Assembly: GCA_022448315.1 (NCBI GenBank)
Contig: JAKVCA010000020.1
Span: 1-64,000 of the forward strand
Origin: Pirellulaceae bacterium
GTDB lineage: Bacteria; Planctomycetota; Planctomycetia; Pirellulales; Pirellulaceae
Reading direction: 5' to 3'
DNA: 64,000 nt
The notes under the pieces are model-generated. The model saw only the letters and a program-made list of their open reading frames with translations, did no database searches and was not told the origin of the DNA. Positions 47,714 to 53,721 of this stretch are shown here, piece by piece (the stretch's first letter is position 1; every line of letters begins with the position of its first letter). A program made the translations under genes and the position numbers.

Positions 47714-48838
47714 ATGCGGTTTCAACAAGTCTGTATTGAATCTTTGGGGTACGTCCTCCCTGAAGAAGTGTTGACCAGTGATGACGTGGAACAACGACTG
47801 GAACCGCTCTACAAACGTCTTCGCCTACCGTCAGGCCGTTTGGAGTTGATGACAGGCATTCGCGAGAGGCGATTCTGGGCGGCGAACACGATGCCCAGTG
47901 ACTCGAGTATCCAAAGCTGCCGTCATGCGTTACGAGCCGCCGACCTTGCCCCTTCCCAAATTGGCGCTTTGATCCATGCCTCGGTCTGCCGCGACCACCT
48001 AGAGCCCGCCACCGCAAGTCGCGTCCACGACGAACTTGGACTGCCTTACGACTGCGTGATCTATGACGTTTCCAACGCTTGCCTTGGGATATTGAATGGC
48101 ATGCTGCAGGCGGCCAACATGATTGAACTTGGCCAGATCGACGCCGCTTTGGTCGTGGGCAGCGAGGGGAGTCGTGCTCTGGTCGAGACCACCATCGATT
48201 CGTTAAACCGAGATCCGTCATGGACTCGACGGAGTGTCAAACTGGCGGTCGCGTCCCTCACCATCGGCTCGGCCAGCGTCGCCGTCGCCCTGACGCATGA
48301 GTCGATTTCCCAAACGCAGAACCAGCTGCTGGGCGGTGCGGTCATGGCGAATACCGAACATCATCGCTTATGCCATAGCGGGTCCGACGAAGCCGCGTCG
48401 ACCGGCATGCAGCCGCTGATGACAACAGATTCTGAAAAGCTGATGGCCGAAGGGATCAAAACGGGGGCCGCCTGTTTCAACCGATTCAAAGAGACGCTCC
48501 ACTGGTCTCAAAACGACATCGACCGTTCGATTTGTCATCAGGTCGGGACCGCTCACAGGAAGTTGATGCTTGAAAGCCTGAATCTTCGTACCGAAACTGA
48601 TTTCGCGACGCTGGAATACCTCGGCAATACGGGCTCGGCGGCACTTCCCACCACGCTCGCGCTGGGGCTGGAATACGGTCACGTCAACAAGGGCGATCAA
48701 CTCGCGCTGCTGGGCATAGGATCGGGGATCAATTCGGTCATGCTGGGAGTGGATTGGCAACAGACATTGGTTGAGGGCACCGATCCCCATCGGAACCGAC
48801 GATTGTGGCAGGCCGATACGCAGGTCGGTACCGCCTGA
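47714..48838 (+). CDS. OleA-like thiolase, long-chain acyl condensing enzyme
   Basis: OleA performs a head-to-head, non-decarboxylative Claisen condensation of two acyl-CoAs, the first step in olefin and long-chain ketone synthesis. This 374-residue protein keeps Cys123 (SNACLGILNGM), His275 (CHQVG) and Asn305 (LGNTGSAALP). It also keeps the glutamate that distinguishes OleA from FabH, Glu97 in CRDHLEPATAS. RLELMTGIRERRFW and LLGIGSGINSVM match too. No oleB, oleC or oleD homologue is adjacent: the next gene is a VCBS protein. It may make ketones or a planctomycete lipid. Two repeated boxes lie about 165-210 bases upstream. Confidence 0.88.
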   Translation: MRFQQVCIESLGYVLPEEVLTSDDVEQRLEPLYKRLRLPSGRLELMTGIRERRFWAANTMPSDSSIQSCRHALRAADLAPSQIGALIHASVCRDHLEPATASRVHDELGLPYDCVIYDVSNACLGILNGMLQAANMIELGQIDAALVVGSEGSRALVETTIDSLNRDPSWTRRSVKLAVASLTIGSASVAVALTHESISQTQNQLLGGAVMANTEHHRLCHSGSDEAASTGMQPLMTTDSEKLMAEGIKTGAACFNRFKETLHWSQNDIDRSICHQVGTAHRKLMLESLNLRTETDFATLEYLGNTGSAALPTTLALGLEYGHVNKGDQLALLGIGSGINSVMLGVDWQQTLVEGTDPHRNRRLWQADTQVGTA

Positions 48839-48968: not shown

Positions 48969-51527
48969 ATGAAACGGGGAGCGAACTCAATTCCAGTTTC
49001 CCTACCATCTCGACGGAGTGGCGTCATGCGATCATCTCATAGCCCAAGAAGACAGATCACCAACTGGAACGCGGGCGTCCAGTCCTCCGACGTTGCGAAC
49101 GTGGCAGGCAGACTCTCGATTCCTCGCCGCTCCGGGATCTGCTCGGCAATCCTACTTCTAGCCTTGTGCGTGGCGGCCTGTCGGCCTGACTCCGACACCT
49201 CCTCGAAAAACGACGGGACGTCAGCAGATCAGGCACGGGAAGACAGACTCGCCAGCGCAGAACTCGACGAGGATCGACAGCAGGAGATATGGGAGGCAGA
49301 AAGCGTAACGTTTCAGATGGAGCGTCGCTTTGGCTTCAGATTGAAGACCGCCATTATGGAGGGCGATCAGTCCTTTATCCGCTCCGCCTTCGGCGAAAAC
49401 TCAGTCATCGCCATTACCTCGGCCTCTCCTGTCATCAATAACCAAGCGGGCATCGAGGAAATCAAAATCCAAACGGTCGGTCCCGAGGACATGACGCCGA
49501 TCTCAGTGGAAGCGCTTGCCACGCAGTTCATCGACGATTTCTCTGCCTTTGAATCGGTTGACGGCAGCTCGTTCCGTGTCCTGCAAATCAAACGACGCTC
49601 TCCCGAACTCCCGACTTGGGACGCGGAGATTCTACTTTCGGTCCGGGGGGATGCGGCCGATGGACTTCGAAAGGAAGTGACCTGGATTCAAAATGTCGAG
49701 GTCGATTATTTCGACGATCAACCTTTGGACGAAACTGCAAGTTTCAAAAGATGGTCCATCGTCTCGAAAAAGACGAGTACGGGGCAACAGGAGATTTTCA
49801 TTGAAATCACAAGGGAATCGCTCCTTGAGGAAGCCTACTTGCCGGACAACTGGGAGGTCGATGTCGAGAAGACGGAACAGTACCGATTTCAATACGCGGT
49901 CGAAGACTTCGACGCGGACGGAAGACTTGACATTGCGGTCGCCGTGATGGATGGCCCTCCGTTTCTCTTGAAACATTATCCGGATGGGACGTTTCGCCAA
50001 GTCGCACTTGAACGCGGAATTCAGGTCAGTCGTCCCCTGGAAAATTTTTGCTGCTGCTGGCTGGATTTCGACAACGACAACGATCCTGACCTTGTCCTGG
50101 GTGATCGGGTCTATCAAAACGACGACGGCGTCTTTCGGGACGTGACCGAAGCATCTCAACTTGCGATCGACCCCTTTTGCATGGGCGCCGTGGTTGCCGA
50201 TTACGATCTGGATGGAGATCAAGACATCTACGTGATCTATCAGGTCGACCTGAGCAACATTGACGCGGAAGGGGCACAATGGGTCGATGATCGCATGACG
50301 GGCAAGGCGAATCGATTGTGGCAAAACGATGGCGCCGGTCATTTCAAAGATGTGACCGCTGAATCGCGTGCGGGCTCGGGCGGCCGCCACACCCATGCGG
50401 CAGCATGGTTTCATTTCGATGACGACCTGTACCCGGATCTCTATGTTGCCAACGACTTTGGATTGAACGTTGTTTTGAAGAATAATGGCGACGGCACATT
50501 CTCCGACGTCACTTCGGATTCTGACGCTGGCGGTTACTCGACCAGCATGGGGGTTGCGACGGGAGACCTCGACAACAATGGGACCAACGACATCTACGTG
50601 GCAAACATGTTTTCAAAGATGGGTCGCCGGATCATCGCCTACGTCTCGGAAAAAGACTATCCCGACGGAATTTACGAACAAATCGTGGGCTCCTGTGCCG
50701 GCAATCAACTCTACTCTCGAAACACCGGGACGAGTCCATTCACGGAATTGAGCGAGGATTCCGGGATCAACGGAGTCGGGTGGGCCTTCGGGCCGGCAAT
50801 GGCGGACTTTGACAACGACGGCCTGCTGGATATCTACGCGACAACCGGCTTCATGAGCTTCGACCGCACAAAGCCCGATGGCTGATCGTGCCTCTGGCGG
50901 GCTGTCGTGTCACAGCCCTTGGACCGCACCAAGCGAATCAAAGAACTTGGCCCTCTCGATCGTGAACTGGGGGAATTCTGGGTGGAAAACCCCTTCTTGA
51001 TGCCTCAAATGGGCGAAAATCTCAGTGCCTATGAAACCAACTGCCTGTTCATGAATCGCGGAGATCTGAAATTCGTTGACGGAAGCTTTTCCTCAAATGT
51101 CAACCTGGATTCCGACTCCCGCAGCGCCGTTCCAGCAGACTTTAACCGCGATGGCAAAGTGGACCTGCTTGTCGGAAGTGTCGGCGGGGGCCCCCTGAGA
51201 CTCTTCCGGAATCAGCTTCCCACCCGGAGTTGGCTCGGTGTTCGCCTTCGTGGATCTGATTCAAATGCCTCGGGCATCGGTGCCCGCCTCGTCTTCCATG
51301 TGAATGACAGGAAGATCTACAGAGACGTTTTCCCGGCCAACGGTTTCTTTGGAACCGCACCGTCAGAGCTTCTGGTCGGACTCGGGGAAGCGGCCGTCAT
51401 CGAGAAGATTGAAATTCGTTGGCCGAGCGGGCATGTTTCCGAAATCGATTCCGTGACACCTAATCGTTGGGTGGAGATTTTCGAAGATGATCGGGAACCT
51501 TCCGAAATCACACTTCAAGTGAACTGA
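48969..51527 (+). CDS. VCBS/ASPIC-UnbV lipoprotein with in-frame TGA, putative selenoprotein
   Basis: Two frames in the same phase (48969-50885 and 50907-51527) are one gene interrupted only by TGA at 50883-50885. Read through, it gives 852 residues with the TGA codon at 639. The N-terminus has a hydrophobic segment ending in VAAC, a lipobox, so an outer-surface lipoprotein is likely; the GTG at 49101 would give an ideal lipoprotein signal. FG-GAP/VCBS repeats with D-x-D-x-D-G turns (DFDADGRLDIAVAV, DYDLDGDQDIYV, DFDNDGLLDIYATTGF) run from about 310 to 635. The part after TGA, SCLWRAVVSQPLDRTKRI, carries on the domain and ends in an ASPIC/UnbV module (SWLGVRLRG, IEIRWPSG). The context is G-(TGA)-S-C, a U-x-C-like pair. 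Alternatives are a nonsense mutation or a sequencing error. Confidence 0.75.
50899..50918 (+). promoter_or_regulatory. SECIS-like hairpin after in-frame TGA
   Basis: The sequence pairs GGGCTGT (50899-50905) with ACAGCCC (50912-50918), a perfect 7-bp stem. The 6-base loop CGTGTC has G in its second position. The loop begins 20 nt after the TGA at 50883-50885. This spacing and shape fit what is known of bacterial SECIS elements (G in the first two loop positions, roughly 16-37 nt from UGA). It lies within the coding sequence, as bacterial SECIS elements do. Confidence 0.5.
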
Positions 51528-51597: not shown

Positions 51598-53721
51598 TCA
51601 GGGCTTTCGCCGGACGGGCAGAATCCAAATCGCGTCGACGACGACAAATCCGTCCGTACTCTCATTGCTGACGCGAACCTCAATTTGGCCGTCCTCTTCC
51701 ACGCTGTATTGACCGATTTCGATAAACGCTTGCTCGAGGGTCGGCGGAGCTTTCTGGTTGACCAGAATTGAGCTGGGAACCTCACCCACGGTTACCGTCA
51801 CCGGGACGTTGGAGGCACGGTTTTGATGGGGCGTGTACGCAAAGCGAACCGAGTAAAGCCCCTCCGGAAGCTTGGAAAAAATGTAGCGGGCAGTCGCCTG
51901 TCCCTTTCCCTGGTCAGCATCGTGCAAATAGTTGTGCCCCACGAAGCCATCGACCGATCGACTGGGGAGCCAGATGCCCTTCAATTCAGCCCGATCCGTA
52001 TCCAGCCACCAGCCTTTAAGCTTCTTGGGATTGACGGTACCGCGTTCAGACTCGGGAACGTTCCAACTCAGAATCTGCCCGTCTTCGAGCAGGCGTTTCC
52101 GAAGCGGCTCATAGTGGAGATCGTGCAAATCCACTTGAGTTTCCATGGCGAGGCAAGCTGCGGTCGCTGCCGACTGTCCCAGAACCATAAAGACCGGCTC
52201 CATGCGAATCGATCCGTAAGCAATATGCGATGCGGAAAGACAAACCGGAACAATCAGGTTCCTGCATTGCGAGCGTCTCGGCAGAAGGCTTCCCAGACCA
52301 ACAGGGTAGGGGGGAAAGCCACCGACCTGAACATCCCCCTCATTCTGCGCCATACCGGAATCGTTCACGTAGCGTTGCACGTGATGCGAATCCATCGTGT
52401 AGGCCGCGAGGCCGACCGGTCGTTCCGCGACCTGCCTACCTTGGCAATGATTCTGATTCATGACCTCGGATCCGATCATGCGACGGGCTTCACGAATGTA
52501 CAACTGGTGGGACCAACCGCCATTGGCCTGAAACTCATCCCTGCAATTCCCCCAACGTCCGATTTCCGAGCGAATGGCACTGGGAACTCTCTCGTGATTG
52601 GCGAGCGTCCACATCAGCCCCTGCTGGTAAAGAAGATGCTTTTGATAAATCTCTTCTCGTTCTTCGTAGCTTGCTTCCGCCCAGCGATAGCTCTGGCCAA
52701 TAAAATCCGTGGAAAACCCCCGATTGTTGTTCGCGTCAGTTTTTCGATTCGGCATCATGATGGGGTTCCAAGGTGCCGTTTTCGCGCCAGCCTCAAAGTT
52801 CCGAAACAGAAGCTCATACGCCCGCTCGTCGTAACCCTCAGGTTTTTGAAACGGCAACTGATTGTCTTGATGATCCGTTACACACATCCGGAAACAGTAG
52901 GCCTGAACGCGATGATCCCCGTCGCCTTCAACGCCAGGACCAGCCGGGTCGATGCCGGGCAGCAAGCCACTCTCCGGTTTTCCCGGAACGACAAACGGAT
53001 CCACCCCAGGAACCAACTGGTGATGCCTCGCATACGCCGTCTGGATCCCATTGAGGGTCTCCTCGTAGCGATCATTGGGCTCTCGCCCCACGATATAGTC
53101 AACGTCTGCTGCTGCAAGCAAATCGCCCTCGTAAGTCGCATCAATAAAGATCTGCCCCGAAAGCTCCAGACCACTTTCCATACGGAGAGTCTGAATCGCA
53201 CCTTCAATCAGAGGCACACGCTGAAGCCGATTCAACCGTTCTTCTTCAAAGACCGTGATCTCTGGAAATTCTTTGAGCCAGGCTCGGAAAATCGCTTCAG
53301 CAACATGGGGTTCAAAAAACCACATGGCGTCTTCTCGCGGATCCTGTCGTCGATTGGTGTAGGCATTGGGCTGCTCGACTGTCCATGCAGATAGCTGACT
53401 ATAGTGCTGCTTCACGCGTTGATAAAACTCGCGTGAAAGTCCACCAATGGCCTGCTTGTTACCAATATCAGTCGCCCCCAAGCCACCGCTCGTCAGCCCA
53501 CCAAGATGAAGTCCGGGCTCGACCAATGCCACCGTCCGCCCCATTGTCGCGGCTTGAATGGCCGCGGTAATGCCGCCGCTGGTTCCACCATAAATCACAA
53601 CATCAAATTCCCGAGCGGTGGCCGCTGGGTTCAAACCTCCGAACATCAGGACCACGATCAAGAGACTCACAACCGCGGCTTTCCGCCTTGGGCCTTGATC
53701 ATGACGTTCCATTCGAATCAT
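51598..53721 (-). CDS. Exported FAD-dependent oxidoreductase with C-terminal golvesin-like domain
   Basis: This 707-residue protein has an N-terminal signal or anchor (about 14-36), then VVIYGGTSGGITAAIQAATMG (FAD dinucleotide loop) and HLGGLTSGGLGATDIGNK, which marks the PF12831 FAD-dependent oxidoreductase family common in planctomycetes. FIDATYEGDLLAAADV and the later IVPVCLSASHIAYGSIRMEPVFMVLGQSAATAA are typical of this family. The last 130 residues (from about 575) form a beta domain with YLHDADQGKGQATARYIF, similar to golvesin/xanthan lyase C-terminal domains that may bind carbohydrate. The substrate is unknown. A long open frame on the opposite strand is a codon-structure artefact. Confidence 0.86.
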   Translation of the reverse strand: MIRMERHDQGPRRKAAVVSLLIVVLMFGGLNPAATAREFDVVIYGGTSGGITAAIQAATMGRTVALVEPGLHLGGLTSGGLGATDIGNKQAIGGLSREFYQRVKQHYSQLSAWTVEQPNAYTNRRQDPREDAMWFFEPHVAEAIFRAWLKEFPEITVFEEERLNRLQRVPLIEGAIQTLRMESGLELSGQIFIDATYEGDLLAAADVDYIVGREPNDRYEETLNGIQTAYARHHQLVPGVDPFVVPGKPESGLLPGIDPAGPGVEGDGDHRVQAYCFRMCVTDHQDNQLPFQKPEGYDERAYELLFRNFEAGAKTAPWNPIMMPNRKTDANNNRGFSTDFIGQSYRWAEASYEEREEIYQKHLLYQQGLMWTLANHERVPSAIRSEIGRWGNCRDEFQANGGWSHQLYIREARRMIGSEVMNQNHCQGRQVAERPVGLAAYTMDSHHVQRYVNDSGMAQNEGDVQVGGFPPYPVGLGSLLPRRSQCRNLIVPVCLSASHIAYGSIRMEPVFMVLGQSAATAACLAMETQVDLHDLHYEPLRKRLLEDGQILSWNVPESERGTVNPKKLKGWWLDTDRAELKGIWLPSRSVDGFVGHNYLHDADQGKGQATARYIFSKLPEGLYSVRFAYTPHQNRASNVPVTVTVGEVPSSILVNQKAPPTLEQAFIEIGQYSVEEDGQIEVRVSNESTDGFVVVDAIWILPVRRKP

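Follow-up and report, generated by a model that had tools for sequence, protein, structure and literature searches.

The gene at positions 48,969 to 51,527 of the window (by which we mean the whole 64,000-nucleotide stretch of Pirellulaceae DNA analysed) very probably encodes a full-length selenoprotein in which UGA codon 639 is read as selenocysteine (Sec), and not a broken gene, as judged by comparative sequence analysis. The Sec reading, put forward in the initial annotation, is supported by TGA in relatives, by a clade of homologues with Cys, by a covarying SECIS-like hairpin and by the Sec machinery in the genome; the case rests on conservation and covariation across relatives, because a lone hairpin proves little. 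From the UGA, the hairpin, its covariation and the machinery genes, which are all directly visible, we infer the decoding itself: SelB carrying Sec-tRNA(UCA) would bind the hairpin just 3′ of the UGA, and the ribosome would decode UGA 639 as Sec. The features referred to below are the following.

48969..51527, + strand: putative selenoprotein gene, 852 residues including Sec639; relatives share the TGA at the site
50883..50885, + strand: in-frame UGA probably read as selenocysteine, residue 639, context KPDG-U-S-C-L-W
50899..50918, + strand: candidate bSECIS-type hairpin, 7-bp stem, loop CGUGUC starting 20 nt after the UGA
49137..49181, + strand: hydrophobic putative export signal with a lipobox-like VAAC end (Cys71), read by eye
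49251..49784, + strand: N-terminal alpha+beta domain, probably NTF2/ketosteroid-isomerase-like (model residues 1-178; Foldseek)
49785..51491, + strand: predicted CRTAC1-like beta-propeller (FG-GAP repeats) plus UnbV_ASPIC (model residues 179-747, aligned with 9etn_A)
51273..51467, + strand: UnbV_ASPIC domain (PF07593), 3′ of the UGA, Pfam match
47714..48838, + strand: upstream neighbour, 3-oxoacyl-ACP synthase III-like protein, no sign of belonging to the system
51598..53721, - strand: downstream neighbour, FAD_oxidored plus Golvesin_C protein, no sign of belonging to the system

The internal UGA and its homologous sites

From the longest start, ATG 48969 (ATG 49026 is possible as well), to the terminal TGA at 51525-51527, the TGA at 50883-50885 is the sole in-frame stop, which confirms the earlier description of one TGA splitting an otherwise open FG-GAP/UnbV_ASPIC gene whose halves lie in one frame. 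The claim that there is no decay 3′ of the TGA also holds, since identity to five relatives is about equal before it (residues 300-638; 53, 39, 39, 35 and 36%) and after it (50, 42, 40, 41 and 43%). Directly 3′ of the gene, and convergent with it, lies the FAD-dependent oxidoreductase with a Golvesin_C domain; the neighbouring genes of the window gave no functional lead.

Comparison of the read-through protein with 146 genomes of the same order showed that in many places the match contains a single TGA, the nearest such relative being 46% identical, and 22 genomes of the order, the window's own included, hold a TGA inside the match. A phylum-wide profile search of 392 genomes gave matches at E≤1e-40 in 111, many of them with one TGA. 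When the site was first located by a regional profile, 170 distinct sites (three matches with a gap at the site being left out) comprised 144 TGA, 10 TGC and 16 other codons, one of the latter, a TGT at 16.7 bits, being spurious. For the final set named genomes were added, and matches at E≥1e-6, gapped sites, sites near a locus end, genome_contigs matches of ≤85 bits and identical 93-nt windows were dropped. In this set TGA occupies 151, Cys 12 and other residues 17 of the 180 distinct homologous sites, which are a non-random sample, as loci were fetched partly for having a TGA, so that 151/180 is no frequency. TGA is the only stop seen, neither TAA nor TAG occurring among the 180 sites, and the two genomes with a TAG (G008) or a TAA (G050) inside the match have Cys at the actual site (L091 and L064, respectively). 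The homologous loci belong to Planctomycetota, Verrucomicrobiota and Acidobacteriota, and the TGA carriers, all of them MAGs, include two Verrucomicrobiales, an Akkermansiaceae bacterium, a Fuerstiella, a Rhodopirellula and one member of the Acidobacteriota.

The proposal that homologues should carry TGA or Cys at residue 639 stood in part: TGA is found in many and Cys in one clade, but 17 of the 29 sense homologues have neither (Glu 7, Ala 3, Arg 2, Gly 2, Asp, Asn and Thr), from which it follows that Sec is dispensable in some lineages. In a tree of 179 rows (150 Sec; one TGA row was too short for inclusion) the 12 Cys rows form one clade with full support, the window sits in a clade of 27 rows that are all Sec, and the Sec label changes 9 times, compared with 27.3 times when shuffled. 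Three of the 17 (two Gly, one Thr) stand far off in the tree, and the remaining 14, with Glu, Ala, Asp, Asn or Arg, sit within groups of Sec rows; because of this nesting, and because 9 of the 14 have no stem by the hairpin rule given below, these 14 rows are read as Sec losses. For several of them the genome also holds a Sec copy.

A few individual loci deserve mention. In a Verrucomicrobia MAG (L225:6460-6462) a Glu codon, GAA, occupies the Sec site and is accompanied by an intact 6-bp hairpin, GCGCAC-CATG-GTGCGC, which looks like a fossil SECIS after a recent Sec loss. Two genomes of the window's order, G022 and G039, each have seven matches to the TGA-hairpin pattern, both strands taken together; such matches, which include chance ones, were used for fetching loci and estimating copies per genome, and six G022 rows aligned as Sec in the tree point to numerous gene copies. 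Two long-branch relatives, L166 (KDC-U-TFYW) and L167 (DDL-U-MVFL), have TGA at the site in unusual contexts and may be further classes or misaligned.

The hairpin 3′ of the UGA

The window hairpin, GGGCUGU-CGUGUC-ACAGCCC, is exactly as the initial annotation claimed, with a 7-bp stem (50899-50905 with 50912-50918), a loop (50906-50911) beginning 20 nt past the TGA and G as its second position. The bSECIS criteria given in PMC13188914 are a loop of 3-9 nt, a stem of 4-16 bp, G in the first two loop positions, a distance of 16-37 nt from the UGA and an MFE of ≤ -7.5, and the window hairpin agrees with all of them: its loop has 6 nt and its stem 7 bp, G is the second loop base, 20 nt separate UGA and loop, and the 20-mer has -11.1 kcal/mol. 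As an argument against a chance nonsense mutation, the use that had been made of it, the hairpin fared less well: the 20-mer by itself beats its shuffles (z -3.55), yet the 42 nt that follow the TGA are not distinct from theirs (z -0.58), and alone this proves little. Hairpin energy was rejected as proof on account of the latter value and of the synonymous-codon shuffles, which only 69 of the 151 TGA genes beat singly at p≤0.05. A search of positions 50700-51100 against Rfam gave no match at E≤1.

Across relatives, a hairpin was scored by rule as a stem score of ≥5 with a loop 16-22 nt after the codon. Such a hairpin is present in 141/151 TGA genes, in 0/12 Cys homologues and in 5/17 homologues with other residues (Fisher 2.6e-17, TGA versus all 29 sense rows), the remaining 10 TGA genes being without a stem of 5 under the rule. 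In each of these 141 genes the distance from the TGA to the loop is 17, 18, 20 or 21 nt, and in the other-sense homologues the mean stem, 3.41, is no better than the synonymous null of 3.35.

For the study of covariation the TGA sites were split into subfamily A (27), family B (115, of which 114 distinct) and 9 that fit neither motif, and comparison was made with shuffles that ignore relatedness. Double-change cells number 14 versus 5.6 shuffled in subfamily A, where the covariation score is 0.222 versus 0.131 and 0/500 shuffles are as high, and 41 versus 11.9 in family B (0/500). Other measures were less distinct: in subfamily A the pairs changed on both sides are 4 versus 2.3 (25/500 shuffles as high), further pair types are 7 versus 7.6 (420/500), and sliding the partner by +2 still gives a score of 0.199, while in family B further pair types are 11 versus 9.4 (18/500). 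The changes on both sides in subfamily A fall in four pairs, of which the RNAalifold consensus keeps three; the outermost, 50899-50918 in the window, is not kept and is broken in 18/27 sequences.

The clearest case of covariation is the pair between columns 18 and 28 in family B, for which the types are AU 45, GU 29, CG 20, GC 5 and UA 3. In codon terms, column 18 falls on the wobble position of an Arg CGN codon and column 28 on the opening base of the codon four positions further on, and the two pair at 101/113 sites. The wobble base is A or G where the second codon is Ser (TCx; 74/74), G where it is Pro or, once, Leu (5/5), T where it is Thr (3/3) and mostly C where it is Ala (17/20). A silent Arg wobble base that tracks an amino-acid change is hard to explain except by pairing. 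In subfamily A the codons of the four conserved stem-loop residues are fixed at 0.87-0.96, compared with a mean of 0.59 and a highest value of 0.91 for 57 other conserved columns, and a fifth conserved residue, a Pro whose codon has its third base outside the conserved stem, is free (0.30). The loops differ between the two groups (CGUGUC in subfamily A, GGUC in family B), and L046 and L078, of a third class, keep the GGUC loop with the stem in a slid register. Judged by these alignments, the hairpin is a conserved and covarying RNA feature.

Predicted fold and possible function of the product

The read-through protein contains five FG-GAP_3 stretches followed by UnbV_ASPIC, and its Pfam matches PF13517 (137.5 bits) and PF07593 (51.5 bits) are both over cut-off; in NCBIfam no family matched the window protein at E≤0.01. 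A model of residues 95-852 with Cys replacing Sec, built from an alignment that excluded L216 (X residues), has a mean pLDDT of 82.8 and a pTM of 0.87. Its residues 179-747 align with murine CRTAC1 (9etn_A) at Z 41.7 and rmsd 2.5 over 454 aligned positions, the next row reaching 28.9, and the same chain is found by sequence at E 1.5e-19. Foldseek also gave NTF2/ketosteroid-isomerase-like chains at E about 0.003, whose placement on model residues 1-178 is suggested by size. Modelling thus predicts for the product an FG-GAP beta-propeller like that of CRTAC1, joined by a UnbV_ASPIC module, and the lipobox seen by eye suggests that it is probably exported and lipid-anchored.

Sec639 corresponds to model residue 545, the first of a helix spanning 545-554, where the local pLDDT is about 71-73. 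The N-terminus of a helix is a usual place for a reactive thiol or selenol. The U-x-C pair noted in the initial annotation, formed in the window with Cys641, occurs in 26/27 sequences of subfamily A and so holds for the window's subfamily, but not for the larger family. In family B, as seen in L041, L078 and the G086 gene, the polypeptide continues into an AhpC-TSA/Redoxin domain, often with TPRs. A WA[ST]WCxxC motif is present in 37/86 non-A genes with a complete C-terminus, and of 10 genes chosen for lacking the strict motif 9 match AhpC-TSA or Redoxin at E≤0.001, in one case below the cut-off of Pfam; the tenth, L110, which may have a thioredoxin-like domain as well, shows none among the best 25 of its 28 matches or among those listed for its C-terminal 385 residues. 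The window protein has no thioredoxin-like Pfam match at E≤0.01.

On balance, a redox role of Sec639 seems probable, with a good deal of doubt remaining: the protein would be an oxidoreductase or peroxidase acting outside the cytoplasm with Sec639 as its reactive group, and the resolving partner would be Cys641 in subfamily A and, in many members of family B, the fused thioredoxin domain of TlpA/ResA type. A redox enzyme is favoured because of the position of Sec at a helix N-terminus, the U-x-C pair and the fused thioredoxin-like domains. These same three points, the first of them taken from the model, speak against a non-catalytic Sec, serving in structure, in metal or selenium storage, or in reporting selenium status through truncation, which we regard as possible and clearly the less probable view. 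Paralogues with Glu, Ala, Asn or Arg in place of Sec are in its favour; moreover, a propeller is often a binding scaffold.

Among known systems, the gene resembles those of SelB/bSECIS selenoproteins such as formate dehydrogenase in its in-frame UGA, in the hairpin directly 3′ with G in the first two loop positions and a spacing within 16-37 nt, and in the presence of selA, selB, selD and tRNA-Sec in the genome. The domain order and predicted fold are those of CRTAC1/UnbV_ASPIC proteins (cartilage acidic protein 1; PF07593 with PF13517), from which the window protein differs in its putative Sec and extra N-terminal domain, and many bacterial relatives differ in a fused thioredoxin-like domain and TPRs. 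TlpA/ResA proteins match the C-terminal domain of family B (in L041, AhpC-TSA is over cut-off and NF047696, TlpA, below it); unlike in these, the thioredoxin-like domain of family B is fused behind the Sec propeller, and the window protein shows no match to such a domain. Sec lies within the thioredoxin motif itself in ResA-like WAxxUGC proteins (NF041054), to judge by the name of the model. SBP1/SELENBP1, which is not known to be a Sec protein, was not seen among the matches obtained here; it is linked with selenium in papers that also use the term beta-propeller.

The statement in the initial annotation that no such case was known agrees with a full-text search of mainly open-access journal papers, in which none was found: no paper joined UnbV with selenoprotein, ASPIC with selenoprotein and selenocysteine, VCBS with selenocysteine, or CRTAC1 with bacteria and selenocysteine. 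A prokaryotic selenoprotein catalogue of 2026 gives its content as 119 families or subfamilies, and no FG-GAP/UnbV_ASPIC or CRTAC1-like propeller family is named in its Table 1 (PMC13188914). The family names had 0 matches in the main text of PMC12013277, PMC9312934 and PMC5029168, and 0 in the text of PMC4807772, whose supplementary table S9 of candidate selenoproteins from planctomycetes, outside the search, might list such a gene. The insertion mechanism would be the known bacterial one and the propeller family is, as far as seen, new, and the combination of Sec with a CRTAC1-like fold is apparently undescribed in the literature searched.

Taken as a whole, the evidence moderately favours the view that exported beta-propeller selenoproteins form a large and so far undescribed superfamily in three phyla, with 6-7 copies in some genomes and a catalytic, extracytoplasmic redox Sec on a CRTAC1-type scaffold. 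It would comprise at least three classes: one with KPDG-U-xC and no thioredoxin, one in which DL/DT-U-S goes with a fused thioredoxin-like domain, and a third with U-SxFWR[ST]VV. If this is true, a widespread selenoprotein family is added whose kind the 2026 catalogue lacks; it may be a major selenium user in these bacteria and would give a concrete reason for many Planctomycetota keeping the Sec machinery. In an enigmatic family that animals share (CRTAC1), a selenium-dependent function could then be tested. The finding would also suggest that many database UnbV/ASPIC genes are wrongly ended at an internal UGA; annotation in these phyla would be apt to show genes of this sort as truncated or split. 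The hairpins are ready material for the study of SelB recognition of divergent SECIS elements.

Selenocysteine machinery and other readings of the UGA

The search for sel genes in the same genome, proposed in the initial annotation, gave SelA (464 bits), SelB (359) and SelD (250), all over cut-off, and a tRNA-Sec of 72 bits with anticodon TCA. They are unlinked to the selenoprotein gene (C36, C35, C53 and C72 versus C40), and SelD lies, as in the G086 genome described below, within a longer open frame, here of 767 residues. SelB is over cut-off in 77/84 genomes with TGA homologues among the matches listed versus 158/308 others (Fisher 8.5e-13), a comparison made without correction for relatedness, in which two candidates per genome were scored and the TGA lay inside the match, not every one being placed at the site. 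One genome, G317, had been moved out of the TGA set (85 to 84) for its Cys at the site (L190); counted as a TGA genome, it gives 77/85 versus 158/307 (Fisher 3.9e-12). Within the order, SelA reaches the threshold of 290 bits, set for this analysis, in 18/22 genomes with a TGA inside the match versus 27/124 without (Fisher 1.1e-7). Of 12 TGA-match genomes below the SelA or SelB threshold, all but G028 and G317 have a tRNA-Sec that passes the gathering score (10 genomes), G206 with only 50.6 bits; G028 (81% complete) has TGA homologues but neither SelA over threshold nor tRNA-Sec.

In some genomes the genes are close together. In two Verrucomicrobiales contigs (L215, L216) the TGA gene abuts selB, with selD further along in both and selA in L216; in G204 selB is about 12 kb from the TGA gene; and in G086, whose genome is a single contig and belongs to the window's order, the genes run selA and selB (- strand), then a selD fusion, a GSDH-like gene and a family B TGA gene (+ strand).

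A conserved stem-loop after a UGA can stimulate readthrough too, and recoding in bacteria is partial, so that a short product is expected as well. The hairpin might accordingly be a signal for programmed readthrough inserting an ordinary amino acid, or for regulated termination yielding a short and a long product, and Glu or Ala in several sense homologues would suit the former. We consider this highly improbable, as the stop at the 180 sites is always TGA and never TAA or TAG, the genes are associated with SelB and linked to sel genes, a Cys clade exists, and loop rule and spacing fit the bSECIS model quoted in PMC13188914. More improbable still is a recent nonsense mutation or sequencing error, which would make the gene a pseudogene or a pair of fragments. 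An error would indeed look like one stop in one draft genome, and the hairpin by itself would do little to dispel that impression, but TGA stands at this codon in relatives with about 30-46% identity and in three phyla, and neither the undiminished identity after the TGA nor the covarying hairpin is expected of a broken gene. For the family, the conserved TGA and covarying hairpin refute this reading. Reassignment of UGA in the genome (code 4 type), for which nothing speaks beyond the single internal UGA, has a negligible probability and is refuted by the terminal TGA of the same gene at 51525-51527 and by long neighbouring frames that are normal under table 11. Decoding as Sec is thus the reading retained.

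Two further observations concern the sel loci. In G086 the SelD (L295:9209-13440) is fused to a pyridine nucleotide-disulfide oxidoreductase domain, and the gene that follows it, just before the TGA gene, is glucose/sorbosone dehydrogenase-like. Between selB and the other sel genes of the two Verrucomicrobiales contigs lie proteins of 319 (L215:7055-8014) and 312 residues (L216:8750-9688) with no NCBIfam match at E≤1e-10, which are possibly a new sel-linked gene.
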